Of a stretch of DNA of 14,030 nt, positions 1,943-13,903 are shown one piece after another. The stretch covers positions 1-14,030 of the forward strand of contig JABFXT010000385.1 in NCBI GenBank assembly GCA_013361595.1, written 5' to 3'. The first letter of the stretch is position 1, and each line of letters opens with the position of its first letter. The stretch comes from Nocardia sp. GTDB lineage: Bacteria > Actinomycetota > Actinomycetes > Mycobacteriales > Mycobacteriaceae. The position numbers and the translations under genes were made by a program. The notes under the pieces were generated by a model. The model did not search any database. It saw only the letters and a program-made list of their open reading frames with translations, and was not told the DNA's origin.

Positions 1943-3481
1943 TCACAGCCCGAACGGTGGCGGTGCGGCCGGTTCGTACCGCATCATGCGGTGGCCGATC
2001 AGGATCTCGCTTCCCGGGATCAGCACCACGGGCTGGTGCGGTGGAATACGCACCCAGTCGCGGTAGCCGGCGGCCCGGGTCCGCGTGCCGTTGGTGGACC
2101 CGCGGTCGACCAGTGTAACATCCCAGTTCACCAGCCGTAGTTCGGCGTGCGCGCGTGACATTCCGCCGGAATTGTCCACCACCTGGAGTGGAGTGAGCCC
2201 GCGCCGGGCCGGTTCGGAGTTCTCCGGGTCGCGGCCCAGTACGGAATCCCCCTCCAGCAGGTAGGTCGCGCCGTCGTCGAGGACCAGGATGCCCAGCGGC
2301 GGCCGGACCACTTCGATCAGCGGCTGGGTCTGGTCCACCGGCATACCGCAGACACTGCAGAAGGCCGCACGCGGGTCGGTGGGATGAGCGCGCGCGCATT
2401 TGAACCCCATCACCTTGACGGTGCGCGCGTTGCCCTTGGCGGTGGCCTCGGTCCGGCGGCGCAGTTCCGGGTCCAGTGGCGGAGTACCGCGTTCGGCCGG
2501 TCCGTGCGCGGCGTAGGGCAGGTCCCGGCGCGGGGTGGGATGCGCGGGCGGGCCGGGCGGTGGCGCGGAATCCCCCGGCCGGGCGCCCGGGGTGGCATCG
2601 GCCGCGGTACTCCGGTGCGGCTGCCGGTCACTGATCTCGGTCTCCGCCCGGTGTGGGTCGGTTTCGCCGAGCCCGCGCGACCCGTCGGTGGGTACGGATT
2701 CGCCCGGCCCGGTACCGGATGCGCTGCCGCGCTCGGAGAGTTCGACGGTGTCCATCAGCGGTGTCGAGATCGCGGTGACCACGGCGTCCGGGTCCGCTGC
2801 CGGATCCGGCCGCCGATCCGGCGATTCCCGGGGCGGCCGGACGGTGTCCGCGGTCTCCCCCGATTCCGGGCCCTCCGGGTGCGTGCGGCTCGAGATCCTG
2901 GCCGCCGGCGATGCCGTGTTCCCGTCCGGGCCCGCGGGCGATGTCCAGACGATCACCCCGGCGGCCTCGGCGATCCCCTCCACCAGCCGGCCGATTCCGC
3001 GGACCGCCGGGGGCGCGGGCCGATCCAGGTCCGTGTCGACGGCGATATCGTCGACGAACAGCGCGACCGCGCGAGCCGGGGTGGCCGCCGTGCGATCGAC
3101 GGTGAACGCCGCGTCCCGGCCGTAGAAATATTCGCGGTCCGCGCCGTCGAGCACCGCCGTGACTGCGCCGTGCAGGAAGATCGCGATACGGCCGGGGCCC
3201 GCGGCGGAGAGAATACCGAAGTCCGTCGAGTTCGCCGGTCCGGTCCGGTCCCCCTGTGTCATGAGCCATCTGGTGGCTTCCCGGGCGATCAGCGCGCCCG
3301 GTCCGTCGGGCCGCCGCGCGGCCGCTTCGTGCACCAGTTCGGCCAGGGCGACCAGGGCGCGCATCGCGGGAGCGTCCGCGGTGGGCCGTTCCGGACCGCG
3401 ATGGGCGACCAGGACCACCGAACCCGCGACCCGGGCCGCCGCATGCGGTCCGGCGACAACCTCGACCTGCTGATCCCGCAT
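1943..3481 (-). CDS. Zinc-ribbon and FHA-domain protein with unknown N-terminal domain
   Basis: The minus-strand product is 512 residues from ATG 3481. Three parts are visible. Residues 1 to about 185 form a compact domain I do not recognise, with motifs such as REYFYGRDAAFTVDR and IAIFLHGAVTAVLDG. Residues about 190-350 are Pro/Arg/Asp-rich and probably disordered. The C-terminus has a short zinc-ribbon-like segment (C-x13-C-x2-C, residues about 363-381) and then an FHA domain to the end (G-R-D, M-S-R-A-H, G-S-T-N-G-T). It is likely a cytoplasmic phosphothreonine-reading scaffold in Ser/Thr-kinase signalling; the partner is unknown. The open frame continues upstream to 3745, but that part overlaps the divergent lipoprotein gene and reads as low-complexity sequence, so the internal ATG is preferred. 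Its ribosome-binding site is weak, so the start is the least certain point. Confidence 0.82.
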   Translation of the reverse strand: MRDQQVEVVAGPHAAARVAGSVVLVAHRGPERPTADAPAMRALVALAELVHEAAARRPDGPGALIAREATRWLMTQGDRTGPANSTDFGILSAAGPGRIAIFLHGAVTAVLDGADREYFYGRDAAFTVDRTAATPARAVALFVDDIAVDTDLDRPAPPAVRGIGRLVEGIAEAAGVIVWTSPAGPDGNTASPAARISSRTHPEGPESGETADTVRPPRESPDRRPDPAADPDAVVTAISTPLMDTVELSERGSASGTGPGESVPTDGSRGLGETDPHRAETEISDRQPHRSTAADATPGARPGDSAPPPGPPAHPTPRRDLPYAAHGPAERGTPPLDPELRRRTEATAKGNARTVKVMGFKCARAHPTDPRAAFCSVCGMPVDQTQPLIEVVRPPLGILVLDDGATYLLEGDSVLGRDPENSEPARRGLTPLQVVDNSGGMSRAHAELRLVNWDVTLVDRGSTNGTRTRAAGYRDWVRIPPHQPVVLIPGSEILIGHRMMRYEPAAPPPFGL

Positions 3482-3626
3482 CGGGATCAGCCGCCGTCGG
3501 AGTCGCGCTGCGGTTCGCCTGCCACTGCTCCAGGGTATGGCACCGGGCCTCGGCCGCCCTCCCCGAGATCGCCCTCGGTCGGGTAACTTCGACACCGCAG
3601 TTTCGATCGGAACGAGGGGCCGGCCC
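3482..3626. promoter_or_regulatory. Divergent intergenic region with candidate -10 for the lipoprotein gene
   Basis: The 145-nt gap lies between the zinc-ribbon/FHA gene and the DUF7373-like lipoprotein gene. TAACTT at 3584-3589 fits a TAnnnT -10 on the plus strand, about 38 nt before the start codon, but no clear -35 is visible 16-18 nt upstream of it. GAGGGG at about 3614-3619 is the ribosome-binding site of the lipoprotein gene. Confidence 0.3.
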
Positions 3627-4835
3627 ATGGTTCGGATATCGCGTGTCAGCACCGTCGCCGCGGTCGTCGCTCTCGTGGCGGCCGGTTTGTCCGGCTGCGG
3701 CGCGCTGGCGGGGACGGCGGTCCCGGGGGAAATCGACGTACGCACCTTGGCGGTCGGTGATTTCCCGGTCGACAGGTTCGACTACCCGGGCGACGCCGGC
3801 GACAACGGACCGGTGCTGGAGGGCATCCGCATGGCGGAGGCGGTCGTCACCAGTGACCGGATCGACCCCTCGCTGCGATACGGACGCGGTTCCAAGGTGC
3901 TGCCCGATCCGGCCACCGCGATCGACTTCCTGGCCAATGTGTCCGAGCCGGTGCTGAAGAACCGCAAGATGGTGGTCGGTTACGCGGCCAGCGGGGCCGA
4001 CCGCGACGATCCGGAGGGTCAGACCCGGCCGGACTCCGGCGCCACCGCCGTCACCGTGGTGGCATTGCGTTTCCCCGACACCGCGGCGGCCGGCAGGGCG
4101 GCGAAGGAGCTGGAGGACGCCGATATCGGTGTCTCCCCCGACAACCGGCGGCTGAAGTCGGTGGAACATCCGGACGCGCTGGTGCACTGGCGGCCCGGTA
4201 TCGCCAATATCGGTGCCTTCCTGGCGCAGGACGAATTCGTGATATCCCTGTTCGTCCAGCGGCCGAACGCCGACAGCAAGGATCTGGTGTACTGGGTCGA
4301 CAAGACGCTCACCGCCCAGCTCGCTCAGCTCGGCCGATTCCGGCCCACTCCCACCGCGGATATCGCGGATCTGCAGGTCGATCCCGAGAACATGCTGTCC
4401 CGCGTTGTCGTCGCCGATCGTTCGGGGCAGGTCCCCGATCCCGACAAGTTCGCCGTCTACGGCCGGAACTATCTGATCGCTTCGGCCGACGACCAGCCCG
4501 AACGCGCCCGCCTGCTCGATGATTCCGGTTTCGAGAGCGCCGCGTACGCCGACGGTAGCTCGGTGGCCCGGGTGCGCGATCCGGCCGGGGCGCCGATCCT
4601 GGTGGACGGGTTCGCCGCGTCGACGGGCGAAGCCTACGATCCACATCCCGCGGTGGCCGATGTCCCCGGTGCCAAATGCCTGCAGCTCAACTCGAAGGGC
4701 GATCCGCAGCACCAGTACCGTTTCCGCTGCTTCGTCCCGTACAAGCGGTATGTGGGTGTCGTGTCCAGCGATAGCGAGACCGAGGTCGAGCAGAAGACCG
4801 CGGCTCAGTACGCGTTGCTCGCGAACAGCCTCTGA
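3627..4835 (+). CDS. DUF7373-like lipoprotein
   Basis: The 402-residue product begins with a signal peptide (MVRISR, hydrophobic residues 9-21) and a lipobox L-S-G-C24, so it should be exported and lipid-anchored. The mature protein has the layout I associate with the DUF7373 family of Nocardia and Rhodococcus lipoproteins: an opening segment about a pair of parameters (D-V-R-T-L-x-V-G-D-F-P), a central two-layer region with V-V-A-L-R-F-P-D-T, a second half containing Y-L-I-A-S-A, and late cysteines (in A-K-C-L-Q and F-R-C-F) that could pair. The function of the family is not known to me. ATG 3627 is preferred to the open frame from 3537 because it places the signal peptide first and has an A-GGGG ribosome-binding site. 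It ends about 300 nt before the metabolic operon and is probably a separate unit. Confidence 0.83.
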   Translation: MVRISRVSTVAAVVALVAAGLSGCGALAGTAVPGEIDVRTLAVGDFPVDRFDYPGDAGDNGPVLEGIRMAEAVVTSDRIDPSLRYGRGSKVLPDPATAIDFLANVSEPVLKNRKMVVGYAASGADRDDPEGQTRPDSGATAVTVVALRFPDTAAAGRAAKELEDADIGVSPDNRRLKSVEHPDALVHWRPGIANIGAFLAQDEFVISLFVQRPNADSKDLVYWVDKTLTAQLAQLGRFRPTPTADIADLQVDPENMLSRVVVADRSGQVPDPDKFAVYGRNYLIASADDQPERARLLDDSGFESAAYADGSSVARVRDPAGAPILVDGFAASTGEAYDPHPAVADVPGAKCLQLNSKGDPQHQYRFRCFVPYKRYVGVVSSDSETEVEQKTAAQYALLANSL

Positions 4836-4842
4836 TCGCCGC

Positions 4843-4863
4843 GCCGGCCGGCCGGTGGCCGGT
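4843..4863 (+). terminator. Candidate GC-rich hairpin terminator
   Basis: Just after the stop of the lipoprotein gene, GCCGGCC (4843-4849) and GGCCGGT (4857-4863) can pair with a 7-nt loop (one G-U pair). There is no T-run. The block is a simple repeat of CCGG so chance pairing is possible, but position and stem suit a U-less actinobacterial terminator. Confidence 0.28.
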
Positions 4864-4916
4864 CCGGAATTCGTTGTGGCGCGGACACTCTCGCCGTGCG
4901 GCGCGTCGCGCCGATT

Positions 4917-4945
4917 TTGCTCCAAGGGCAGGCTAGCCTTACCGT
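4917..4945 (+). promoter_or_regulatory. Candidate promoter with embedded IdeR/DmdR-like iron box
   Basis: A 19-bp site at 4923-4941 matches the mycobacterial IdeR consensus TTAGGTTAGGCTAACCTAA at 13 of 19 positions by my hand alignment. Its core AGGCTAGCCT (4930-4939) is a perfect palindrome that extends to GG and CC at 4926-4927 and 4942-4943. It lies between TTGCTC (4917-4922) and TACCGT (4940-4945), which make a -35/-10 pair with 17-nt spacing, exactly where an iron-dependent repressor would block RNA polymerase. The first gene of the oxygenase/PLP operon starts 190 nt downstream. Repression by Fe(II)-IdeR/DmdR when iron is plentiful is inferred from the site, not shown. Confidence 0.6.
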
Positions 4946-5003
4946 GTTCTGCGTCTCATCGCGGCACGAACGTCCGGCGCCCGTATACCCGCCCACCTGT
5001 ACT

Positions 5004-5060
5004 TTGAGTCCGCCATAACAATTTGCTATCACACGCGGTAGTTAGGTAACCCTTGCCACG
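5004..5060 (+). promoter_or_regulatory. Candidate second promoter and weaker iron-box-like site
   Basis: TTGAGT (5004-5009) and TATCAC (5027-5032) have the 17-nt spacing of a sigma-A-type promoter, which would start RNA near 5039. Immediately after, TTAGGT (5042-5047) begins a 19-bp stretch to 5060 that matches the IdeR consensus at 11 of 19 positions, good on the left arm and poor on the right. A repressor here would sit over the start of transcription. This is weaker than the upstream site and could be chance. GAGAAGGGA at 5122-5130 is the ribosome-binding site of the first gene. Confidence 0.35.
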
Positions 5061-5137
5061 GCTGCGCGAACGCACTAATTTCGCACCGACTCCACACTCC
5101 GGTACTCCGAACCACAATTCCGAGAAGGGAAACATTG

Positions 5138-6298
5138 GTGAAAAGCGTTCTCTCCGAACGTAAGACGCTTCACCCACCTAGCATCGAAGATATCGAGCAC
5201 CGTGAGTTACCCGAAACCGCCGGACGGGCGGTGCGTGACCTGGCCGCTGAGATCGCGTTCACACTGGCCCCCGCGCCGGACGATACCGCGCGGGCACTGG
5301 CCGACCCCGCGCTGATCGCGCAGATCACCGCCCGCGTACCCGAACTCCCCGCGGCGGTACGCCACGCGGTACGCCCGCCGACCGGAGCCGCCGGGGCATG
5401 CGTACTGCGGCGGCTGCCCCTGCGCGACGACGAGATCGGTCCCACCCCGCCGGATTGGCAGACAGCGACCGCCTGGACCGCCGAGCCGGATCGGCCGGGC
5501 TGTTCGGCCGAGCTGGACATCGCCATGCTCCTGCTCGCCGCGGCCGCCGGGGAGCCGTTCGGCTGGGCCGGTCAGCAGGACGGCCGCCTGGTCAACAACA
5601 TCGTGCCCGCGGCCGGGCACGAACTCGAGCAGTCCGGTGCCAGCAGCACCGTTCTGCTCAGCCCGCACACCGAGGACGCCTTCCATCCGATGCGCGCGAA
5701 CCTGCTGCTGCTCGGCTGTCTGCGCAACCCCGACCGCGTCGGCACCACGGTCTCCTCGGTCCGCCGGGTGGAGCTCACCGCCGCGGAACAGGAGACACTG
5801 CGCACACCCACGCTGCCGATCCTGCCGGACGTCTCCTACGGGTCCGGATTCGATCGCGCTACCGCCGTACCCGTTCCGACGCTGTGGTGCGAACCCGGAC
5901 ACGAAGGCGAAGCCGAAGCACTCACCGTACGATTCGACCCCGCCTACACACCGCACGACGACGCCGGTCCGGCCTACCGGGCGGCGTACCGGCGGCTGAC
6001 GGACGAACTCGAACGAGTCTGTGTACCGGCCTGTCTCGAACCCGGCGAGTTGCTCCTCGTCGACAACGATGTCGCAGTTCACGGCCGGGTTCCGTTCGTC
6101 GCCCGCTACGACGGCACCGACCGCTGGCTCAAACGGGTGAACATCCGGCTACCCGAACGCCCGCGCCGCGCAGCCGAATCCGGGGAGAATGGATACGGTC
6201 AGCGAATCATCGCGCCCTTCGCGCCGCTACCGGCGCAACGGGCGCGGGCAGAGCGGAACGGTGCAGTAGATGATCGAGGATCCGTTGAGCACACGTGA
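5138..6298 (+). CDS. VioC/AsnO-type Fe(II)/2-oxoglutarate amino-acid oxygenase
   Basis: The 386-residue product belongs to the clavaminate-synthase-like group of TauD/TfdA dioxygenases. The iron triad is H177-T-E179 in S-P-H-T-E-D-A-F-H-P and distal H315 in D-N-D-V-A-V-H-G-R; R333 in R-W-L-K-R-V should hold 2-oxoglutarate. The H-x-E form with the following M-R-A-N and C-L-R-N-P-D segments resembles arginine 3-hydroxylase VioC and asparagine hydroxylase AsnO, which hydroxylate the beta carbon of free amino acids. The exact substrate cannot be read from sequence. GTG 5138 is preferred because AAGGGA lies 7 nt before it; TTG 5135 is also possible. It is the first gene of the operon and its end overlaps the next gene by 29 nt. 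The last 35 residues are Arg-rich and look like an unstructured tail. Confidence 0.85.
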   Translation: MKSVLSERKTLHPPSIEDIEHRELPETAGRAVRDLAAEIAFTLAPAPDDTARALADPALIAQITARVPELPAAVRHAVRPPTGAAGACVLRRLPLRDDEIGPTPPDWQTATAWTAEPDRPGCSAELDIAMLLLAAAAGEPFGWAGQQDGRLVNNIVPAAGHELEQSGASSTVLLSPHTEDAFHPMRANLLLLGCLRNPDRVGTTVSSVRRVELTAAEQETLRTPTLPILPDVSYGSGFDRATAVPVPTLWCEPGHEGEAEALTVRFDPAYTPHDDAGPAYRAAYRRLTDELERVCVPACLEPGELLLVDNDVAVHGRVPFVARYDGTDRWLKRVNIRLPERPRRAAESGENGYGQRIIAPFAPLPAQRARAERNGAVDDRGSVEHT

Positions 6299-7280
6299 CC
6301 GAGCGACCCCCCTGCGTGTCCTGAGCCGCGGCGATCTCGCCGACGTGCCGGTGGCTCCGGCCGAGGTCGTCCGCGCGGTGGAGGAAGCGTATATCGCACT
6401 GGCGGCCGGGGATTCCGATAATCCACGCAAGCTCAGCGTCGCCAATCCGGACGGCTGGTCGGTCGCCTACGCGATGCTGGGCCGCGACGGCCGGCGCCGG
6501 GTGGTCGCGATGAAGACGTCGTACAAATTCGATCCCGGGCACGATCGCACCACCAAGCGGTACTACACGACCATCACGCTGTACGACGACACCACCGGCG
6601 CGCCCATCGCCATGATGGACTGCTCCCGGGTCGGCGCCCTGCGCACCCCGGCGGTATCCGCGCTGCTGGTTCGCGAAACACTGCACCGGGACGCGGATAC
6701 CGTGCTGCTCGTCGGCACCGGTACCCAGGGCCGCAACGCCCTACCGCATCTGCTGGCCGCCAATCCGCAACTGCGCAAGCTGATGCTGTACGGCACCCAC
6801 CCCGAAGGCATCGAGGCAGTGCACCGGCAGCTGGCCGATTACGCACCGCACGCGCTGCTGGAGAACGTCGCCGACCCCTACGCCGCGGCGGGAACGGCGG
6901 ATGTGGTGCTGGCGACCGCCGGCCCGGGTACCGAGGTCGCCATCGAATCCGAGCATCTGAAATCGGGGTCGGTGGTGGTGCTGGTGGGTTACGGACTGGC
7001 CCCGTCGACCCTGCGCGACGCCGACCGGGTCGTCGCCACCAGTGCCGAGCAGATGGCCCTGACCGGCACCGATATGGCCGACGACAACGGCGAATTGCGC
7101 CGGGTGGACGCGGAACTGCCGCAGATCCTGAGCCGGCGTGCCGTGGGCCGGCAGCGCGCGGCGGACAAGATCTTCGTCTACAACAGCGGTCTGGTGCTCA
7201 CCGATGTCGCAGTAGCCCACGCCCTGGCCGAACGCGCCATCGCCGAAGGCCGCGGCACGGAGGTGGCGTTATGGGATTGA
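6270..7280 (+). CDS. Ornithine cyclodeaminase / SbnB-like NAD-dependent enzyme
   Basis: The 336-residue product has the ornithine cyclodeaminase/mu-crystallin fold. The dinucleotide-binding loop is G149-T-G151-T-Q-G154 after a hydrophobic strand; K82 (V-A-M-K-T-S) and R125 (G-A-L-R-T-P-A-V-S) fit the conserved substrate-binding positions. Relatives convert ornithine to proline, reduce cyclic imines, or, as SbnB, oxidatively split N-(1-amino-1-carboxyl-2-ethyl)glutamate to 2,3-diaminopropionate and 2-oxoglutarate. An SbnA-like gene two places downstream favours the SbnB role, but the K-T-S-Y-K-F and M-M-D-C-S segments are not the textbook SbnB forms, so the substrate is open. ATG 6270 lies inside the upstream gene with a poor ribosome-binding site; TTG 6285, preceded by GAGGA, is an alternative. 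It overlaps the next start by 10 nt, implying coupled translation. Confidence 0.82.
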   Translation: MIEDPLSTRDRATPLRVLSRGDLADVPVAPAEVVRAVEEAYIALAAGDSDNPRKLSVANPDGWSVAYAMLGRDGRRRVVAMKTSYKFDPGHDRTTKRYYTTITLYDDTTGAPIAMMDCSRVGALRTPAVSALLVRETLHRDADTVLLVGTGTQGRNALPHLLAANPQLRKLMLYGTHPEGIEAVHRQLADYAPHALLENVADPYAAAGTADVVLATAGPGTEVAIESEHLKSGSVVVLVGYGLAPSTLRDADRVVATSAEQMALTGTDMADDNGELRRVDAELPQILSRRAVGRQRAADKIFVYNSGLVLTDVAVAHALAERAIAEGRGTEVALWD

Positions 7281-8653
7281 CCGGAGCCGATGCCCCCGCC
7301 GGGGCCGAACCCGGCCCCGGCGGCCTGTCCGAAGGGACCGTGGCGGCGCCGTTGCCCGCGTACCGCGACCGCTGGGAAGAACACATTCTGAGCGATCCGC
7401 AGTTGCTCGGCGATATCGCCTTCGCGATCGGCGGACCGTTCCACCTGATGTATCCGGCCCGCGTGGTCGACAATATCCGCGCTTTCCAGCGGGTTTTCAC
7501 CGATTCCCGGACGCCGGGCACCGTCTATTACGGCAAAAAGGCCAACAAAGCGGCCTGTGTGGCACGAGCATGTGCCACCGCCGGGGCGGGTATCGATGTT
7601 TCGAGCACCGGCGAACTGACCGTGGCGTTGGGCCAGGGAATTCGGGGTGCGGATCTGCTCGTCACCGGACCCGAGAAATCCGACGAGCTGCACTGGCTGG
7701 CCGCCCGGCACGGCTGCCTGATCGCCGTGGACAGTATCGGCGAGCTGAAACGTCTGGCAGCATTGGATATTCCGATGAATGTGCTGCTGCGGATGCTACC
7801 CGCAGCCTCGGCCAGCCGGTTCGGAATGTCGGCCGAGGAACTCGATCAGGCGGTCTCCGAAGCCGCCGACTATCCCACGATCTCGCTACAGGGATTCAGC
7901 TTCCACCTTTCCGGCTACGACCCGGAACCGCGCGCCGAGATGGCCGGGCAACTGATCGACCGGTGCCGGGCCGCCCGTACACTGGGGCATCCGGCCGGAA
8001 TCATCTCCATCGGTGGCGGCTTCGGTGTCGACTACATTCCCGCTGCCGACTGGTCTGCTTTCCGGCAGCAGGAAACCCGCCGCTGGTTCCATTCCGGCAA
8101 GGCATTCGAGTCGTACTATCCGTATTCCTTTCCCGAGCCCGGGCCGGCCATGCTGGCCGCGATTCTTCGACGCGACGATCTGGCCGGCCGCCTGCGCCGC
8201 ACGGAGACGACGCTGGCGATCGAACCGGGCCGCGCTCTACTGGACCGGGCGGGCAGCACGGTTTTCCGGGTGCAGGGCGGGAAGACCCGCCACGAACACG
8301 GGCAGCCCTACCGGCTCCTGACCGTGGACGGATCCAGCCTGAGCCTCTCCGAACAATGGTTCGACAGCGAATACCTCCCCGATCCGGTGCTCTGGCCGGA
8401 CGGGCCCGGAACGCCGACCGCCACGGTCGTCGGGGCGGCCACCTGCCTCGAATCGGACATGCTGAGCTGGCGCCGCATTCCGTTGCCCCGCGCCGCCGTC
8501 ACCGGCGATCTGCTGATCTACCCGAATACCGCCGGATATCAGATGGATTCCAACGAATCGCCCTTTCACGAATTACCCCTTCCGCCGAAAGTGGTGCTCT
8601 CCGAAGCACCGGGCGGCCGGTATCGCTGGGCCCTCGATCAACCCTGTCAGTGA
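7271..8653 (+). CDS. Fold-type III PLP decarboxylase-like enzyme (Y4yA/SbnH-like)
   Basis: The 460-residue product is an alanine-racemase/ornithine-decarboxylase-fold PLP enzyme. K90 in Y-Y-G-K-K-A-N is the expected Schiff-base lysine; F-H-L-S-G, G-G-G-F-G and E318-P-G-R321 bind the PLP phosphate and ring; C392-L-E-S-D396 is the loop given to the partner subunit of the dimer. The closing N-T-A-G-Y-Q-M-D-x-N-E-S and the insertion before E-P-G-R resemble the Y4yA family rather than classical diaminopimelate or ornithine decarboxylases (which have C-E/D-S-x-D). SbnH, a related enzyme, decarboxylates a citryl-diaminopropionate intermediate of staphyloferrin B. The likely role is decarboxylation of a diamino acid or its N-substituted form. 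ATG 7271 has GGAGG 7 nt upstream and overlaps the previous gene. The first 20 residues are a Gly/Pro-rich extension. Confidence 0.82.
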   Translation: MGLTGADAPAGAEPGPGGLSEGTVAAPLPAYRDRWEEHILSDPQLLGDIAFAIGGPFHLMYPARVVDNIRAFQRVFTDSRTPGTVYYGKKANKAACVARACATAGAGIDVSSTGELTVALGQGIRGADLLVTGPEKSDELHWLAARHGCLIAVDSIGELKRLAALDIPMNVLLRMLPAASASRFGMSAEELDQAVSEAADYPTISLQGFSFHLSGYDPEPRAEMAGQLIDRCRAARTLGHPAGIISIGGGFGVDYIPAADWSAFRQQETRRWFHSGKAFESYYPYSFPEPGPAMLAAILRRDDLAGRLRRTETTLAIEPGRALLDRAGSTVFRVQGGKTRHEHGQPYRLLTVDGSSLSLSEQWFDSEYLPDPVLWPDGPGTPTATVVGAATCLESDMLSWRRIPLPRAAVTGDLLIYPNTAGYQMDSNESPFHELPLPPKVVLSEAPGGRYRWALDQPCQ

Positions 8654-8672
8654 GACCGCAGCCCCGGTCTCA
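8651..8672 (+). other. Perfect inverted repeat over the decarboxylase stop codon
   Basis: TGAGACC (8651-8657) and GGTCTCA (8666-8672) form a perfect 7-bp stem with an 8-nt loop. The stop codon of the decarboxylase gene is the first arm. It occupies the only real gap within the five-gene operon. No T-run follows, so it may be a weak attenuator, an RNA-processing or stability element, or chance. Confidence 0.45.
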
Positions 8673-8708
8673 TCGCACCGCCCGATTTCGACGCCCAGGA
8701 GATCCGCC

Positions 8709-9845
8709 ATGTCCCTCGTCACCCGTGTCACGGACCTGATCGGCCGCACCCCGCTCTTCGAATTGGCCGCGACCTCGTCCGGCACCCGATTACTGCTCAA
8801 GCTCGAACAGTTCAACCCGACCGGCGCCGCCAAGATCCGGATGGCGCGGGAAATGGTCCTCGACGCGGAGCGTCGGGGTTTGCTGCGCGACGGCGGACAT
8901 ATCATCGAATCCACATCCGGAAATACCGGGCTCGGTCTCGCGGTGGTCGCCGCCGAACGCGGCTATCGTTTCACCGCGGTGGTCGATCATCACGCGAGTA
9001 AGGACAAACTGCGGGCGATGCGGGCAATGGGCGCGGAGCTGGTTTTCGTCGCCGACGACGGTGACGACGATCTGGCGACCTCGGCGCGGGAAGATCACGC
9101 GGCCGCGATGGCGGCGGCGCAACCGGACGCTTTCTTCACCGAACAGCACAACAACGACGCCAATGCCGTCGGCTATTACGCGGTCGCCGAGGAATTACTG
9201 GCCGAGGTGGATCGCGTGGATATCCTGCTGTCCGCGGTCGGCACCGGCGGTTCGCTTTTCGGCACCGCGACCCGGTTGCGGCAGCTCGGCTGTGTACCGC
9301 GGGTCATCGGAGTGGAACCGGTCGGTTCCATCGCCTTCGGCGGGCCGGGTGGACCGTACTGGCAGTCCGGGACCGGCACCCCGCCCGGCGCCACCATCGG
9401 TACCGCCGTGGACTACGACCTGCTCGACGAGGGAATGAAGGTGACGGACCGGGCCGCATTCGCCACCTGCCGCGCGATATCGCGCCGGCTGGGCCTGATG
9501 CTCGGCGGTTCCGCGGGCGGTTCGGTCCATGCCGCGCTGACCCGGCTCGAAGAATTCCCGGCCGGATCCACCGTGGTCACCATCGTCTGCGACGGCGGCG
9601 AGAAGTATCTCGACACCGTGTTCGACGACGACTGGATGGCCGCCCGAGAGCTGCTCGATCCCGATACCGAGCGCGATGTCCACGCCATGCTCACCCGGTA
9701 TGCCCCCGGGAGCCGGGGCAATCATCCGGTGGGGGCGGCCGTTTTGAACGACGCTGCCGCCGGGAATACCCACGCCGTCCGCGCCGCCCGGCCGGACGAC
9801 CACGAACATACGGAGGAATCGGACACTATGGTGCGGGCCCGGTGA
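8709..9845 (+). CDS. Cysteine-synthase-like / SbnA-like PLP enzyme
   Basis: The 378-residue product is a fold-type II beta-replacement enzyme of the CysK/SbnA group. K42 in N-P-T-G-A-A-K-I-R is the PLP lysine, S68-T-S-G-N-T-G74 is the substrate-carboxylate loop, and G-T-G-G-S and G-G-S-A-G-G hold the PLP phosphate and ring nitrogen. Cysteine synthases make cysteine; SbnA joins O-phosphoserine to the amino group of glutamate as the first step to 2,3-diaminopropionate. The neighbouring SbnB-like gene favours the latter kind of reaction, though a different amine acceptor is possible. ATG 8709 has AGGAG 7 nt upstream. The family core ends near residue 330; about 45 further residues form a low-complexity tail rich in Ala, Asp, Glu and His. 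It overlaps the MATE gene by 4 nt (GTGA). Confidence 0.84.
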   Translation: MSLVTRVTDLIGRTPLFELAATSSGTRLLLKLEQFNPTGAAKIRMAREMVLDAERRGLLRDGGHIIESTSGNTGLGLAVVAAERGYRFTAVVDHHASKDKLRAMRAMGAELVFVADDGDDDLATSAREDHAAAMAAAQPDAFFTEQHNNDANAVGYYAVAEELLAEVDRVDILLSAVGTGGSLFGTATRLRQLGCVPRVIGVEPVGSIAFGGPGGPYWQSGTGTPPGATIGTAVDYDLLDEGMKVTDRAAFATCRAISRRLGLMLGGSAGGSVHAALTRLEEFPAGSTVVTIVCDGGEKYLDTVFDDDWMAARELLDPDTERDVHAMLTRYAPGSRGNHPVGAAVLNDAAAGNTHAVRAARPDDHEHTEESDTMVRAR

Positions 9846-11245
9846 TCGGCACACCTCTCTCGCGACTTCGTCCCGACGGGCGGCGGCTGGCCGCCCTGGC
9901 CACCCCCATCGCGCTGACCCAGCTCGCGCAGGTGGCCGTATCCACTACCAATATCGCGCTGATGGGCGGCCTCGGTGTACGCGCGGTCGCCGCGGGCGGC
10001 CTCGCGCTCGTGCTGTTCAACCAGATCCGCACCATGTGCGTCGGATTGATCACCGGTAGCGGCAACCAGATCGCCGCCGCGGTGGGCGCCGCCGGAAGAC
10101 GCGGCGACGATCCCGACCCCGAGGTCCGCGATGTGGTCCGGTCGAGTTTTCTGATCGCCACCGTCGCCGGCCTGTTGGGCGGCGCGATACTGATCGGCCT
10201 CGGCTGGTCGCTGCAGTGGCTCGGTCAGGACGCCGGCGTCCTGGCCGATGCCCGGCCGTTGATGGTGGCACTGGCTCCGGGTCTGCTGCCCTGTCTCTGG
10301 TTCCAGGTGTTACGCCAGTACACCGTGGGAATGCAGCGGCCGCAGGCACTGCTCGCGGTCACCCTGGGCTCGATCGCGGTCAACCTGGTGCTCGCCATGG
10401 CCCTGATCCACGGCTGGGCCGGGCTGCCGGCGCTCGGACTCACCGGTGTGGGGGTGGCGACCTCGCTGGTCTTCCTGCTCATGTTCGCCGGGTTCTGGAC
10501 GATGGTGCGCCGCGATCCGGAACTGGGTCCCACCCTGCCGGTCCGCCCGTGGCCGGTGCGGATGGCGACCGTCCGCGGCGAACTACGGCTGGGCACACCC
10601 ATCGCCCTCACCTACGGTTCCGAGGCGGGGATGTTCTCGGTACTCGCATTGGTGATGGGGGCGCTGGGCCCGGCGGCGCTGGCCGCCCACAATGTGGTCT
10701 ACCAGGTGATCTATATCGTGTTCCAGATCGCCATCGGCATATCGCACGGCGCCTCGATCCTGGTCAGCCACAGTGTCGCCCGCGACGAGACCTCGCACGC
10801 GCGGGGCCTGGCCCGGCTGGCACTGCAATTCGCCGGGGCGGTCGCCCTGGTCACCGGGCTCGCCTATGCCTTCGTCCCCGATCTGGTGCTGCGTCCTTTC
10901 CTGGATCCCGCCGATCAGGCGACCGTGGAGGTGGCGCGGTCACTGCTGCTGATCGGTATCGTGCTCCAGTTCTTCGACGCGGCGCAGAACATCGGGACCG
11001 GGCTGCTGCGCGGGTTGCAGGCCACCGATGCCGGTTTCCGGCTGTCGGTGGTCGGCTACTGGATCGTCGGCCTGCCGACGGCACTCGTACTGGCCTATCC
11101 GGCCGGTATGGGAGCGGCCGGGGTCTGGTGGGGGCTGACCGCGGGTCTGGCCGCCACCGCCGCCCTCATGCTGCGTAAGTACTTCAGTCTGCTGGACCAG
11201 CGGGACGCCGTGCTGACTCCCCGCCCGCGGCAGGTCGTAAGTTAG
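9842..11245 (+). CDS. MATE-family efflux transporter
   Basis: The 467-residue product has about 12 hydrophobic segments in two similar halves, the layout of multidrug and toxic-compound extrusion proteins, with the familiar opening R-R-L-A-A-L-A-T-P-I-A-L-T-Q and second-half A-A-H-N-V-V-Y-Q. MATE proteins export small, often cationic molecules using a Na+ or H+ gradient. As last gene of the operon it is the likely exporter of whatever the four enzymes make. GTG 9842 overlaps the upstream stop. No ribosome-binding site lies at normal distance; a strong GGAGG at 9812-9816 is 25 nt away, so translation is probably coupled. The stop codon lies within the iron-box-like site at 11242-11260. Confidence 0.88.
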   Translation: MIGTPLSRLRPDGRRLAALATPIALTQLAQVAVSTTNIALMGGLGVRAVAAGGLALVLFNQIRTMCVGLITGSGNQIAAAVGAAGRRGDDPDPEVRDVVRSSFLIATVAGLLGGAILIGLGWSLQWLGQDAGVLADARPLMVALAPGLLPCLWFQVLRQYTVGMQRPQALLAVTLGSIAVNLVLAMALIHGWAGLPALGLTGVGVATSLVFLLMFAGFWTMVRRDPELGPTLPVRPWPVRMATVRGELRLGTPIALTYGSEAGMFSVLALVMGALGPAALAAHNVVYQVIYIVFQIAIGISHGASILVSHSVARDETSHARGLARLALQFAGAVALVTGLAYAFVPDLVLRPFLDPADQATVEVARSLLLIGIVLQFFDAAQNIGTGLLRGLQATDAGFRLSVVGYWIVGLPTALVLAYPAGMGAAGVWWGLTAGLAATAALMLRKYFSLLDQRDAVLTPRPRQVVS

Positions 11246-11260
11246 GATTGCCTCTCCAAA
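11242..11260 (+). promoter_or_regulatory. IdeR/DmdR-like iron box before the flavodoxin gene
   Basis: TTAGGATTGCCTCTCCAAA matches the IdeR consensus TTAGGTTAGGCTAACCTAA at 13 of 19 positions by hand alignment, with six of nine symmetric pairs intact. It overlaps a possible -10, TAGGAT (11243-11248), and the stop codon of the MATE gene. The flavodoxin start is 24 nt after it. I found no clear -35 at normal distance, so the promoter itself is uncertain. Confidence 0.5.
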
Positions 11261-11283
11261 CTTTGAGCGGAGGGAGTCGGGCG

Positions 11284-11844
11284 GTGCGTATCGTCGTCCT
11301 GTTCGGTTCGGAAATGGGCACAGCGGAGAAAGTGGCCGAGAACATCGCCGCGGAGATGTCCGGACACGAGGTCACGGTCGCGGATATGAGCGAGTTCGAT
11401 ATCACCGGCCTCGATACCGCGAGCTTCCACATCATCGTGTGCTCCACCTACGGTGCGGGTGACCTGCCCACCGGTGCCGAACCGTTCTTCGAAACACTCG
11501 AGGCGCACCGCCCGGATCTGCACGGCCTGCGCTTCGCCGTGTTCGGCCTCGGCGATTCGGTCTACGACAACACCTTCAACCGGGGCGGCGAGATCGCCGC
11601 CGCGAAGCTCACCGCACTCGGTGGCATTCAGATCGGCGAACACGCCCGCCACGACGCGTCCACCGATATCGCGCCCGCCGCGATGGGCCGCGAATGGGCC
11701 CGGACCCTCGAGATCGCCGCCGAACAGCACTACCGGGCCACCACTGAACGCACCCGCGAGGCCCAGGACCGGATGGTGCAGCAGGTCACCGAGGGCCTCG
11801 ACGAATCGGTCCGCGAGCAGCTCTACGCCGATATCCGGAAATGA
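11284..11844 (+). CDS. Flavodoxin-domain protein
   Basis: The 186-residue product is a flavodoxin. The FMN phosphate loop is G8-S-E-M-G-T-A14; S-T-Y-G-A-G-D-L-P-T-G (54-64) and F-G-L-G-D-S-V-Y-D-N-T-F (87-98) are the loops that sandwich the isoalloxazine ring. These resemble the MioC/CysJ-type flavodoxin domains more than short electron-transfer flavodoxins; about 40 C-terminal residues form an added, probably helical, acidic and polar tail. Flavodoxins carry one or two electrons and often replace ferredoxin when iron is short. GTG 11284 is preferred over an upstream in-frame start at 11248 because GGAGG (11269-11273) lies 10 nt before it. It follows the MATE gene by 38 nt and an iron-box-like site, so it may be in the operon, independently iron-controlled, or both. 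Confidence 0.87.
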   Translation: MRIVVLFGSEMGTAEKVAENIAAEMSGHEVTVADMSEFDITGLDTASFHIIVCSTYGAGDLPTGAEPFFETLEAHRPDLHGLRFAVFGLGDSVYDNTFNRGGEIAAAKLTALGGIQIGEHARHDASTDIAPAAMGREWARTLEIAAEQHYRATTERTREAQDRMVQQVTEGLDESVREQLYADIRK

Positions 11845-12060
11845 GCGAGCCCTGGCCGGCGCCCGAGCCCGGGCAATACGGCGCTCACCTCCGGTTCTGA
11901 GGTCCGCCTTTCCCGGAATCTCACCGATTGTGGCCGATACCAGCGCGTTCCGACGCAGGTCGGGGCCGGTACTTCCCCCGCGCGTGTCCGCGCCGACCTC
12001 TAGACTGGTGCGTGGTACCGCATACCCCTGCTGTACCACGTCGATCCAGGAGGGGACGAT

Positions 12061-12543
12061 ATGGCAGCCGGAATCAGTCCTGCGGAAAATCCCGCAACCG
12101 ACCATCCCGAGCTGGAAGCGCTGCCGGAGTGGCCGCGGGAGACGATCGCGGTTCTGGTCACCACCGATCCCGCGCCGCATGCCATTCCGGTCTCGTGGCC
12201 GGTGCGGGCGGGCGACCGGCGAATCCTGCTGAGCCTCAAATTCGATCGTGGATCGCTGGCCCGGCTCCGCGAGCGGCCGCAGGTCGCGTTGCTCATTCTG
12301 GGTGGCGGCAATGTGGCGCTGTGCGCGCGTGGCGCGGCCAAGGTCATCGCCGAGGAGATGCCCGGCGCCGACGACTATGTGGCCGTACGTCTCGATGTGG
12401 ATGTGATCGATGATCACCGGCAGTCGGCTTTCGCGGTGGCCCAGGGTATTCAGCGCACCGTGCTCGACGACACCGAGTTACACGCTCTGGAACACCGGGT
12501 GGCGACATTGAAATCCTGGGCGGAGAACGAAGAGAAGTTCTGA
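12061..12543 (+). CDS. Pyridoxamine-phosphate-oxidase-like FMN split-barrel protein
   Basis: The 160-residue product resembles small proteins of the PPOX/FMN-binding split-barrel superfamily: after a polar N-terminus, P-E-W-P-R-E-T-I-A-V-L-V-T-T leads into a barrel with P-H-A-I-P-V-S-W-P-V, R-R-I-L-L-S-L-K-F-D-R-G-S-L-A-R-L and A-L-L-I-L-G. Members bind FMN or F420, or act as flavin or haem-handling proteins; which applies here cannot be told. ATG 12061 has an excellent AGGAGGGG ribosome-binding site. A TAGACT hexamer at 12001-12006 in the 216-nt upstream gap could be its -10, so it is probably transcribed separately from the flavodoxin gene. The stop is followed by a gap of about 200 nt before the TerD gene. 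Confidence 0.75.
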   Translation: MAAGISPAENPATDHPELEALPEWPRETIAVLVTTDPAPHAIPVSWPVRAGDRRILLSLKFDRGSLARLRERPQVALLILGGGNVALCARGAAKVIAEEMPGADDYVAVRLDVDVIDDHRQSAFAVAQGIQRTVLDDTELHALEHRVATLKSWAENEEKF

Positions 12544-12684
12544 ATCCGGCCGGCCAGGGCTCGTCCGGTAGAGCGGTCCCCATCGGGTTTCCGCCGAGCG
12601 CACCGGCGCTCGCGGATATCGGGCGTATTCGACGCGTCACGAGCCGGGCTTTTCGACGCCGTCACAAGGGCGCTTCGGGCGCTG

Positions 12685-12734
12685 TGGAAATCGGGCGCTG
12701 TCGGCGCCATGGAAATCAGGCGCTGTCGGCGTCG
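12685..12734 (+). repeat. Two-copy 25-bp tandem repeat upstream of the TerD gene
   Basis: Two adjacent 25-bp units begin at 12685 and 12710. Their first 22 bases differ at one position only (TGGAAATCGGGCGCTG versus TGGAAATCAGGCGCTG, then TCGGCG in both); the last three differ. A partial echo, GGGCGCTGTGG, lies just before the first unit. The block ends 13 nt before the TerD start codon, within its probable leader. Confidence 0.8.
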
Positions 12735-12747
12735 CGGGAAGGAGAAC

Positions 12748-13323
12748 ATGAGCGTCACACTGGCCAAGGGCGGCAATGTCTCGCTGTCCAAGCAGGCCCC
12801 CAACCTGACCAAGATCGCTGTCGGACTCGGCTGGGATGTGCGCACAACCGTGGGCGCCGACTACGACCTGGATGCCAGCGCCCTGGCCACCGGGCCGAGC
12901 CTGAAAGTCCTGTCGGACGGGCATTTCGTGTTCTACAACAACCTCCGGTCACCGGAGGGCTCCATCGAGCACACCGGTGACAATCTGACCGGCGAAGGCG
13001 ACGGTGACGACGAGGTGATCAATGTCGATCTGGCCAATACGCCGGAGACGATCACCAATATCTTCTTCCCGGTCTCCATCCACGACGCCGATCAGCGCGG
13101 TCAGTCCTTCGGTCAGATCCGCAATGCCTATATCCGGGTGGTCGATCTGAGCACCGGTGCCGAACTGGCCCGTTACGACCTGTCCGAGGACGCCTCCTCC
13201 GAAACCGCCATGGTCTTCGGTGAACTCTATCGCCGGCAGGGCGAATGGAAGTTCCGGGCGATCGGCCAGGGCTACGCATCGGGTCTGGCCGGTATCGCGC
13301 GCGACTACGGGGTCAACGTCTAG
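12748..13323 (+). CDS. TerD-family protein
   Basis: The 191-residue product is a full-length TerD-domain protein, close to the usual 190 residues. It opens with M-S-V-T-L-A-K-G-G-N-V-S-L-S-K, has the acidic calcium-binding segments D38-Y-D-L-D42 and G84-D-G-D-D-E, and ends with W-K-F-R-A-I-G-Q-G-Y-x-x-G-L. TerD proteins bind Ca2+ and belong to tellurite-resistance and stress-response systems; in actinomycetes several stand-alone copies are common and influence development and stress tolerance. No other ter genes are in the window, so it is probably a solitary copy. ATG 12748 has GGAAGGAG just upstream. A strong hairpin follows directly after the stop codon. Confidence 0.93.
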   Translation: MSVTLAKGGNVSLSKQAPNLTKIAVGLGWDVRTTVGADYDLDASALATGPSLKVLSDGHFVFYNNLRSPEGSIEHTGDNLTGEGDGDDEVINVDLANTPETITNIFFPVSIHDADQRGQSFGQIRNAYIRVVDLSTGAELARYDLSEDASSETAMVFGELYRRQGEWKFRAIGQGYASGLAGIARDYGVNV

Positions 13324-13357
13324 AGCCGTGCTGCGCGCCGATCGTGCAGCACGGCTC
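13323..13357 (+). terminator. Strong hairpin terminator after the TerD gene
   Basis: GAGCCGTGCTGC (13323-13334) and GCAGCACGGCTC (13346-13357) form a perfect 12-bp stem with an 11-nt loop, starting at the last base of the TerD stop codon. There is no T-run after it, as is usual for actinobacterial hairpin terminators. Confidence 0.75.
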
Positions 13358-13595
13358 GGCAGCATCCCCGGCTCGCTCCATACGCAAGGGCGGCAATGCA
13401 GGGCGCCGTGGCATCAGCGTCTCCGGCGCACGCTCGGTACGACGACAAGCGAGGGCCCGGCGGCGGTCATACGACGCACGTCCACCGTAGGCTCTCCGAG
13501 CCTCCCATCGACTCGCTTGAGGTGGGCGTTCACCCTTTCCATACTTGTCGTATGACACCTGTAAGACAAAGGTCGGGCCGTCGGGGGGACCGAGG
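13358..13595 (+). promoter_or_regulatory. Intergenic region with candidate toxin-antitoxin promoter and operator
   Basis: I see no gene in the first 150 nt of this stretch. Near its end, TTGAGG (13517-13522) and CATACT (13540-13545) are spaced by 17 nt like a sigma-A promoter, giving a start near 13552. Around that point TTGTC (13546-13550) and GACAA (13565-13569) form an inverted repeat with an extra GACA at 13554-13557 between them, a layout suited to an autoregulating ribbon-helix-helix antitoxin. Base composition is less extreme here than in the neighbouring genes. Confidence 0.4.
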
Positions 13596-13684
13596 GTGAA
13601 AGTGCGGCGAAAACGCCCCGGAAACGGACGACGAAGAAGGCGATACCGGGCAGCCGAGAGGCACTGACCCTCGGGCGCAGCCGA
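13596..13684 (+). other. Possible frame-disrupted N-terminal extension of the antitoxin
   Basis: The antitoxin reading frame stays open upstream of its TTG start and reads like protein there: A-A-K-T-P-R-K-R-T-T-K-K-A with G or C at most third codon positions. No ATG, GTG or TTG begins it in that frame. A GTG at 13596 with a GGGGGA ribosome-binding site is one frame off; its own frame stops at 13665-13667. One extra A in the AAAA run at 13610-13613 would join the two as MKVRRKTPRKRTTKKA followed by the antitoxin. Confidence 0.4.
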
Positions 13685-13903
13685 TTGGCCCAGGTCCGGC
13701 TACGTGACGACGAGATGCGAGCACTCGAACGGGTTATGCGGACTCTCGATCTCGCATCGACCTCGGATGCCCTGCGCGAAGGGCTGCAGCTCTTGGCGAA
13801 AGAGGCAGCGGAGGTAGGTGCGGCCGAAGAGATCAGGTCTTTCTATCGAGAGCACCCGGCACCGCTACCCACCGGTGTCGTCGACGATGACATTCAGTGG
13901 TGA
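13685..13903 (+). CDS. Ribbon-helix-helix antitoxin (MazE-like)
   Basis: The 72-residue product fits a CopG/RHH DNA-binding antitoxin: a short beta strand A-Q-V-R-L-R, a first helix D-D-E-M-R-A-L-E-R-V-M-R-T-L, a turn D-L-A-S-T-S, a second helix D-A-L-R-E-G-L-Q-L-L-A-K-E-A, and an acidic tail ending D-D-D-I-Q-W that would wrap the toxin. Such proteins repress their own promoter as dimers and neutralise the toxin encoded next. The start is uncertain: TTG 13685 has no clear ribosome-binding site, and the frame looks coding further upstream (see 13596-13684). Its stop overlaps the toxin start by 4 nt (GTGA), the typical antitoxin-toxin arrangement. Confidence 0.7.
   Translation: MAQVRLRDDEMRALERVMRTLDLASTSDALREGLQLLAKEAAEVGAAEEIRSFYREHPAPLPTGVVDDDIQW

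Follow-up and report, generated by a model that had tools for sequence, protein, structure and literature searches.

A five-gene operon of Nocardia that very probably belongs to the EDHA-type aminopolycarboxylate siderophore systems

Introduction

What does an operon make that encodes siderophore-type enzymes and an exporter, with no ligase beside them? This question is raised by a set of five genes on a contig of Nocardia sp. (JABFXT010000385.1), which was analysed over its entire length of 14,030 nucleotides (hereafter the window) and belongs to an assembly rated 78.2% complete. An initial annotation, made from the sequence alone, had recognized there an oxygenase (OXY), an SbnB-like enzyme (SBNB), a decarboxylase (DEC), an SbnA-like enzyme (SBNA) and a MATE exporter (MATE), and had put forward a new metallophore, or an unusual amino-acid pathway, encoded by a set of genes not yet described. 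We are highly confident that the operon is of the type that directs synthesis of EDHA (ethylenediaminesuccinic acid hydroxyarginine), an aminopolycarboxylic-acid siderophore (Spohn et al. 2018, via PMC8914351 and PMC10702961); it is probably repressed by an IdeR/DmdR-type regulator when iron is plentiful. The claim of novelty had to be given up: operons of this kind are already known in Streptomyces scabiei and Streptomyces sp. MA5143a, and have already been recorded in Nocardia.

Results

Synteny with Streptomyces EDHA loci

Relatives were collected by scanning named genomes with an oxygenase alignment, which returned at least 564 of them, and the best 80 were analysed. Gene contents of these loci are tblastn blocks, not gene calls, and 73 of the 80 are titled Streptomyces because a Streptomyces-type sequence headed the query alignment. 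S. scabiei 87.22 (L163) and MA5143a (L182) both carry the five genes of the window, all on one strand and in unchanged order, with identities of 55% for OXY (304 aligned positions), 59-60% for SBNB, 48-51% for DEC, 69-70% for SBNA and 53% for MATE. Iron-box-like sites are present in both loci, and both operons face genes of an Opp/Nik-type ABC importer, namely an ATPase, two permeases and a solute-binding protein. This synteny led us to reject a new metallophore class.

The S. scabiei blocks span locus positions 2891-13847, that is 10.96 kb, readable as nine genes. Citing Spohn et al. 2018 (Metallomics), PMC8914351 reports for S. scabiei an EDHA cluster of 11 kb, bounded by scab_5231 and scab_5311, and remarks that antiSMASH had missed it. 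MA5143a is the EDHA reference in PMC10702961, where the siderophore is also reported in Nocardia brasiliensis, among others. The EDHA family BGC0002567 was assigned 328 Nocardia windows of 1,450 (PMC11888242, a preprint), and cluster 7.2 of N. mangyaensis NH1 is presented as a Fe-regulated aminopolycarboxylic acid metallophore cluster whose sole listed transporter is a MATE protein (PMC10920908).

The exact order OXY-SBNB-DEC-SBNA-MATE was kept in 68 of the best 80 of the at least 564 named relatives. Among the 12 deviating loci, six end at a contig edge (L112, L140, L158, L166, L173, L174), four have duplicate or split matches (L108, L122, L138, L155) and two are without a MATE match (L136, L184). 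A match to the importer's binding protein was present on the opposite strand in 80/80. The initial annotation had called for such a search, uptake genes included, and had envisaged that homologous loci might always sit within a larger cluster of nonribosomal peptide synthetases (NRPS) or of NRPS-independent siderophore (NIS) synthetases; in many loci, the conserved neighbour turned out to be an ABC importer, not a synthetase.

Gene layout and enzyme families

All five genes were confirmed as open reading frames (ORFs) on the + strand, and their coordinates and family calls were upheld by the ORF list, Pfam and NCBIfam. OXY (5135-6298) has TauD and VioC/GntD-type matches and is predicted to beta-hydroxylate an amino acid with Fe(II) and 2-oxoglutarate, as arginine hydroxylases do; GTG 5138 is more likely its start than TTG 5135, the alignments of several homologues beginning at residue 2. 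SBNB (6270-7280) is an NAD(P)-dependent OCD/SbnB-like enzyme of the OCD/mu-crystallin family, and DEC (7271-8653) a fold-III pyridoxal phosphate (PLP) amino-acid decarboxylase of the LysA/SbnH/ODC superfamily (Orn_Arg_deC_N). SBNA (8709-9845) belongs to the cysteine-synthase/SbnA-like PLP beta-replacement enzymes (PALP), and MATE (9842-11245) is a MatE exporter, probably for siderophore efflux. The genes had been described as one overlapping run, which is correct for three of the four junctions, whereas DEC and SBNA are separated by 55 bases.

The absence of a nearby ligase was borne out: NRPS, NIS-synthetase and ATP-grasp families, as well as IucA/IucC-type synthetases, had no match in Pfam or NCBIfam, each of which was searched with ten ORFs, or pieces of ORFs, from the window (short ones and the one at the left end were outside the scan); an NRPS or NIS context was rejected. 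Staphylopine-type opine metallophores involve a nicotianamine-synthase-like enzyme and an opine dehydrogenase; neither was matched by Pfam or NCBIfam in the ORFs scanned.

Homology to SbnA and SbnB could also mean that the operon supplies free 2,3-diaminopropionate, by the SbnA plus SbnB route, for a siderophore of NRPS or NIS type whose genes lie in another part of the genome. We rejected this as very improbable. SBNA reached 241.4 bits against a cut-off of 349.95 (TIGR03945) and SBNB 100.9 bits against 326.9 (TIGR03944), so that neither was accepted as an SbnA or SbnB equivalog; moreover, both are conserved together with a decarboxylase, an exporter and a hydroxylase of arginine type, and the conserved neighbour is an importer.

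The oxygenase and a probable hydroxyarginine arm

The best relatives of OXY among solved structures are L-arginine beta-hydroxylases (4m23, E 1.3e-46). OXY has the metal-binding H-T-E followed by an Asp (which differs in the 4ne0 chain), an R-x-D-P motif, and a second His and an Arg within V-H-G-R ... G-T-D-R-W-L-K-R. The H-T/S-E-D and R-F/Y-D-P motifs were retained in the window OXY and in 34/34 aligned relatives, matches below 100 bits being excluded from this alignment (L069 has a weak 37% match). This supports the prediction that OXY is an arginine-type beta-hydroxylase, and hence 3-hydroxyarginine as a likely arm of the chelator. The initial annotation had foreseen an ethylenediamine core, as in ethylenediaminedisuccinate (EDDS), plus a hydroxylation, which agrees with an EDHA-type product; it had not named arginine as the probable hydroxylated arm, and the importer lay outside the window.

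Family chemistry and the name of the product together suggest a route. OXY would convert L-arginine into 3-hydroxyarginine. SBNA would create a C-N bond by beta-replacement, attaching the amine of hydroxyarginine or of aspartate to an activated serine at its beta-carbon. DEC would remove the serine-derived carboxyl, and the resulting N-(2-aminoethyl) amino acid would provide the ethylenediamine bridge. SBNB, working in the reductive direction, would then couple a 2-oxo acid to the free amine; reductive amination of oxaloacetate would supply the succinyl arm. The product would be EDHA itself, and no ATP-dependent ligase would be required for its assembly. MATE would export the chelator, and an unlinked Opp/Nik-type ABC importer would recover the iron complex.

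Alternatively, the aminopolycarboxylate made by the genus may not be EDHA: the oxo-acid arm might differ, for instance, or the hydroxylated residue might be a basic amino acid other than arginine. This proposal overlaps with the EDHA assignment at class level. OXY, SBNB and DEC are only 48-60% identical to their Streptomyces counterparts, OXY has an Ala at the position of the second Asp of the CmnC chain 7vgl, and in some members of the genus the importer is unlinked or was not detected, all of which would suit a different ligand. However, the arginine-hydroxylase motifs are kept in the 35 aligned sequences, synteny and iron boxes are conserved, and the operon holds no extra enzyme; we consider a different ligand rather improbable.

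Iron boxes and importer

Upstream sites were given a graded score over the 19 positions of an IdeR/DtxR consensus. Two iron-box-like sites precede the operon, a distal one at 4923-4941 (15/19) and a degenerate proximal one at 5042-5060 (14/19), in keeping with the IdeR-like palindrome first noticed there. Altogether, the window contains four sites scoring at least 14/19, three of which (two overlapping) lie in the operon promoter region; 40 Markov-simulated windows contained 0.03 such sites on average. Neighbour frequencies were preserved in this test only, the other promoter scans having relied on single-base shuffles. In a strict search of the window, for which a single fixed 19-mer was used and no more than 3 mismatches were tolerated, 0 matches were obtained.

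Conservation was examined in the promoters of 20 relatives, hand-picked out of 150 in the genus. An upstream site of at least 15/19 was found in all 20, and in 18 of them a site of 16-17/19 is located between -81 and -97. L049 and L050, the two of the 20 that are closest to the window, have their highest score at the distal site (15/19 at -128 and -213); the proximal box is weakened in the window and its nearest relatives. Taken at the level of DNA sites, these observations point to iron-responsive control of the IdeR/DmdR type.

A second site of at least 14/19, at -192 to -267, is present in 8/9 genus regions with an adjoining importer (the exception is L053), and in L051 it lies directly before the divergent importer gene. 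L061, which has no adjoining importer, also has such a second site. In the window, the distal box occupies this importer-side position with no importer next to it, and is perhaps a relic.

Relatives of the importer binding protein, permease and ATPase (SBP_bac_5 and BPD_transp_1 domains) are encoded elsewhere in the window's genome, at G000:C4:787-5102 (L185), on a contig that terminates within the ATPase. A 16/19 iron-box-like site starts 38 bases upstream of them, and two further importer promoters (L187, L188) have a 15/19 site each. The binding protein of G000:C4 shares 55-56% identity with those of both Streptomyces references and 81% with its counterpart in L082, which is a second EDHA-type locus carried by a different genome of the genus; among the importers compared, that of L082 is the closest. 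The importer relative on G000:C4 may serve in uptake of the iron complex. A close binding protein (54-56% to the query) was found elsewhere in the genome in 4/6 hand-picked relatives, and a binding-protein gene was present in 7/7 of a further set of fetched regions.

Several points weigh against the EDHA assignment. First, OXY, SBNB, DEC and SBNA all fall below the curated NCBIfam equivalog cut-offs, so that they are relatives of VioC/GntD, SbnB, LysA and SbnA whose enzyme identity these scores do not demonstrate. Second, the EDHA operon is described as four genes, AesA-D (PMC10702961), against the five here, and L163 was equated with scab_5231-5311 by its strain, its length and the kinds of genes present, the annotation of NC_013929 playing no part. 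Third, no importer adjoins the operon on the 14,030-base contig, and the binding-protein gene occurs in 9/20 genus regions (L051-L059) and not in the other 11; when six relatives were searched genome-wide, that of G115 was only 35% identical and G117 had none at E 1e-60. Finally, the window boxes score lower than those of most relatives, and 6/35 relatives' promoters top out at 13/19 or less (L069, L074, L079, L080, L081, L084), all six coming from loci without a clear oxygenase match.

Distribution and loci lacking the oxygenase

OXY was found in 149/150 genomes of the genus at E <= 1e-60, and in 147/150 at E <= 1e-95 (G040 and G141 being weaker). In the single miss, G045, the decarboxylase begins at base 531 of a 4280-base contig, and the missing OXY may therefore reflect an assembly gap. 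The five-gene order was kept in 20/20 genus regions fetched around the decarboxylase. Beyond the genus, this marker was detected in 9 further genomes of a family sample (301 searched, threshold 1e-100) and in 7 genomes, from one genus of another family, of a class sample (394 searched, threshold 1e-70). One locus (L072) has the first four operon genes and no MATE match.

Comparison of 47 non-window loci, in which matches below 150 bits were dropped, revealed 9 without an OXY match. Six of these have the order SBNB-DEC-SBNA-MATE (L075, L076, L079, L080, L081, L084). The other three are L069, which has a weak oxygenase match and is counted here because of the threshold, L074, in which an SbnA-like gene (35% identical) comes first, and L083, with the decarboxylase alone. 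In four genomes (G115, G095, G143, G145), a four-gene locus of this type exists alongside an OXY-bearing one. The SBNA proteins of the six loci form one clade (support 1.0) in a midpoint-rooted tree, from which L069 and L074 are absent; in the corresponding midpoint-rooted trees, 2 OXY-plus tips fall within the SBNB grouping, and that of DEC extends over the entire tree. L075 has a Zur-like site of 14/15 along with an IdeR-like site of 16/19. These six loci may be EDDS-type zinc clusters, and are proposed as candidates.

Could the window operon itself make a zinc chelator of the EDDS type? Its SBNB-DEC-SBNA-MATE core is common to the six loci above, and EDDS of Amycolatopsis is reported to be Zur-controlled and made by a route unlike NRPS or NIS synthesis (PMC4993170, PMC6103462). 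Against this, OXY is present in the window and in all but one of the 150 genus genomes, the SBNA proteins of the six loci sit in a separate clade, and the sites of the window are iron-box-like and not Zur-like, the best Zur-like score being 11/15, within the coding start, a value equalled by about 3% of single-base shuffles. This alternative was rejected as hardly credible, and the EDHA type remains our preferred assignment for the window.

Some other features were noted. In one genome of the genus, the decarboxylase gene is in tandem duplicate (L068:9352-11744); the second ORF (10860-11744) is short, and matches span residues 16-156 and 291-460 only. The decarboxylase of L083 (9431-10756) is 56% identical to that of the window, and the other four genes are unmatched in its 20-kb region. 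In the window, a 391-aa ORF (11242-12417, - strand) whose end overlaps the MATE stop has no Pfam or NCBIfam match, and relatives carry 34-78% identical pieces of it. A TerD-domain protein (12709-13323, + strand), with no evident siderophore link, is encoded near the operon in 15/20 genus regions at 83-96% identity. On the left side, a long ORF at 1943-3745 (- strand) overlaps another at 2384-3586 (+ strand); the former has an FHA domain, and the latter is domain-free, with 50-59% identical pieces in two relatives.

Discussion

What looked like a ligase-free metallophore of a new kind is an established class, and effort would be better spent on the order of the steps, the ligand made by the genus, the near-universal retention of the operon and the unlinking of the importer. 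Tentatively, and with more doubt than conviction, we suggest a wider scheme. EDHA-class chelation would be a core, near-universal iron system of the genus, in which the nucleophile chosen by the SbnA-like enzyme, hydroxyarginine or aspartate, tracks the presence of OXY and sets the use of the product for iron (EDHA-like) or zinc (EDDS-like), sometimes both in one genome; the clade of the window would have moved to an unlinked importer, and perhaps changed ligand. If the split of SbnA clades did set the arm used, sequence would suffice in this class to predict the structure of the chelator, and the system would be a simple one.

The window operon has features in common with several known systems. 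Staphyloferrin B (sbn), which is iron-responsive, is made with SbnA-, SbnB- and SbnH-type enzymes and requires NIS synthetases; these were not seen among the window ORFs scanned, and the enzymes of the window stay under the SbnA and SbnB equivalog cut-offs. The genes for tuberactinomycins of the viomycin/capreomycin type combine a VioC-type arginine hydroxylase with an SbnA/SbnB-like pair, but these antibiotics are NRPS-made, and no NRPS matched in the window ORFs scanned. Closer to the window is the zincophore [S,S]-EDDS of A. japonicum, compared here by description alone: it is likewise an aminopolycarboxylate made by a non-NRPS/NIS route (PMC4993170), and probably shares the core of SbnB-like enzyme, decarboxylase, SbnA-like enzyme and exporter, whereas it is under Zur control and has no hydroxyarginine arm (PMC4993170, PMC6103462). 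The closest system is the EDHA cluster of S. scabiei 87-22 (BGC0002567) and MA5143a. It differs from the window by its adjoining ABC importer, a relative of which has its own iron-box-like site on contig C4 of the Nocardia genome, and by protein identities of 48-70%; the two agree in their five genes, in the order of these and in having them all on one strand, with iron-box-like sites, no ligase, an arginine-hydroxylase-type OXY and a MATE exporter.

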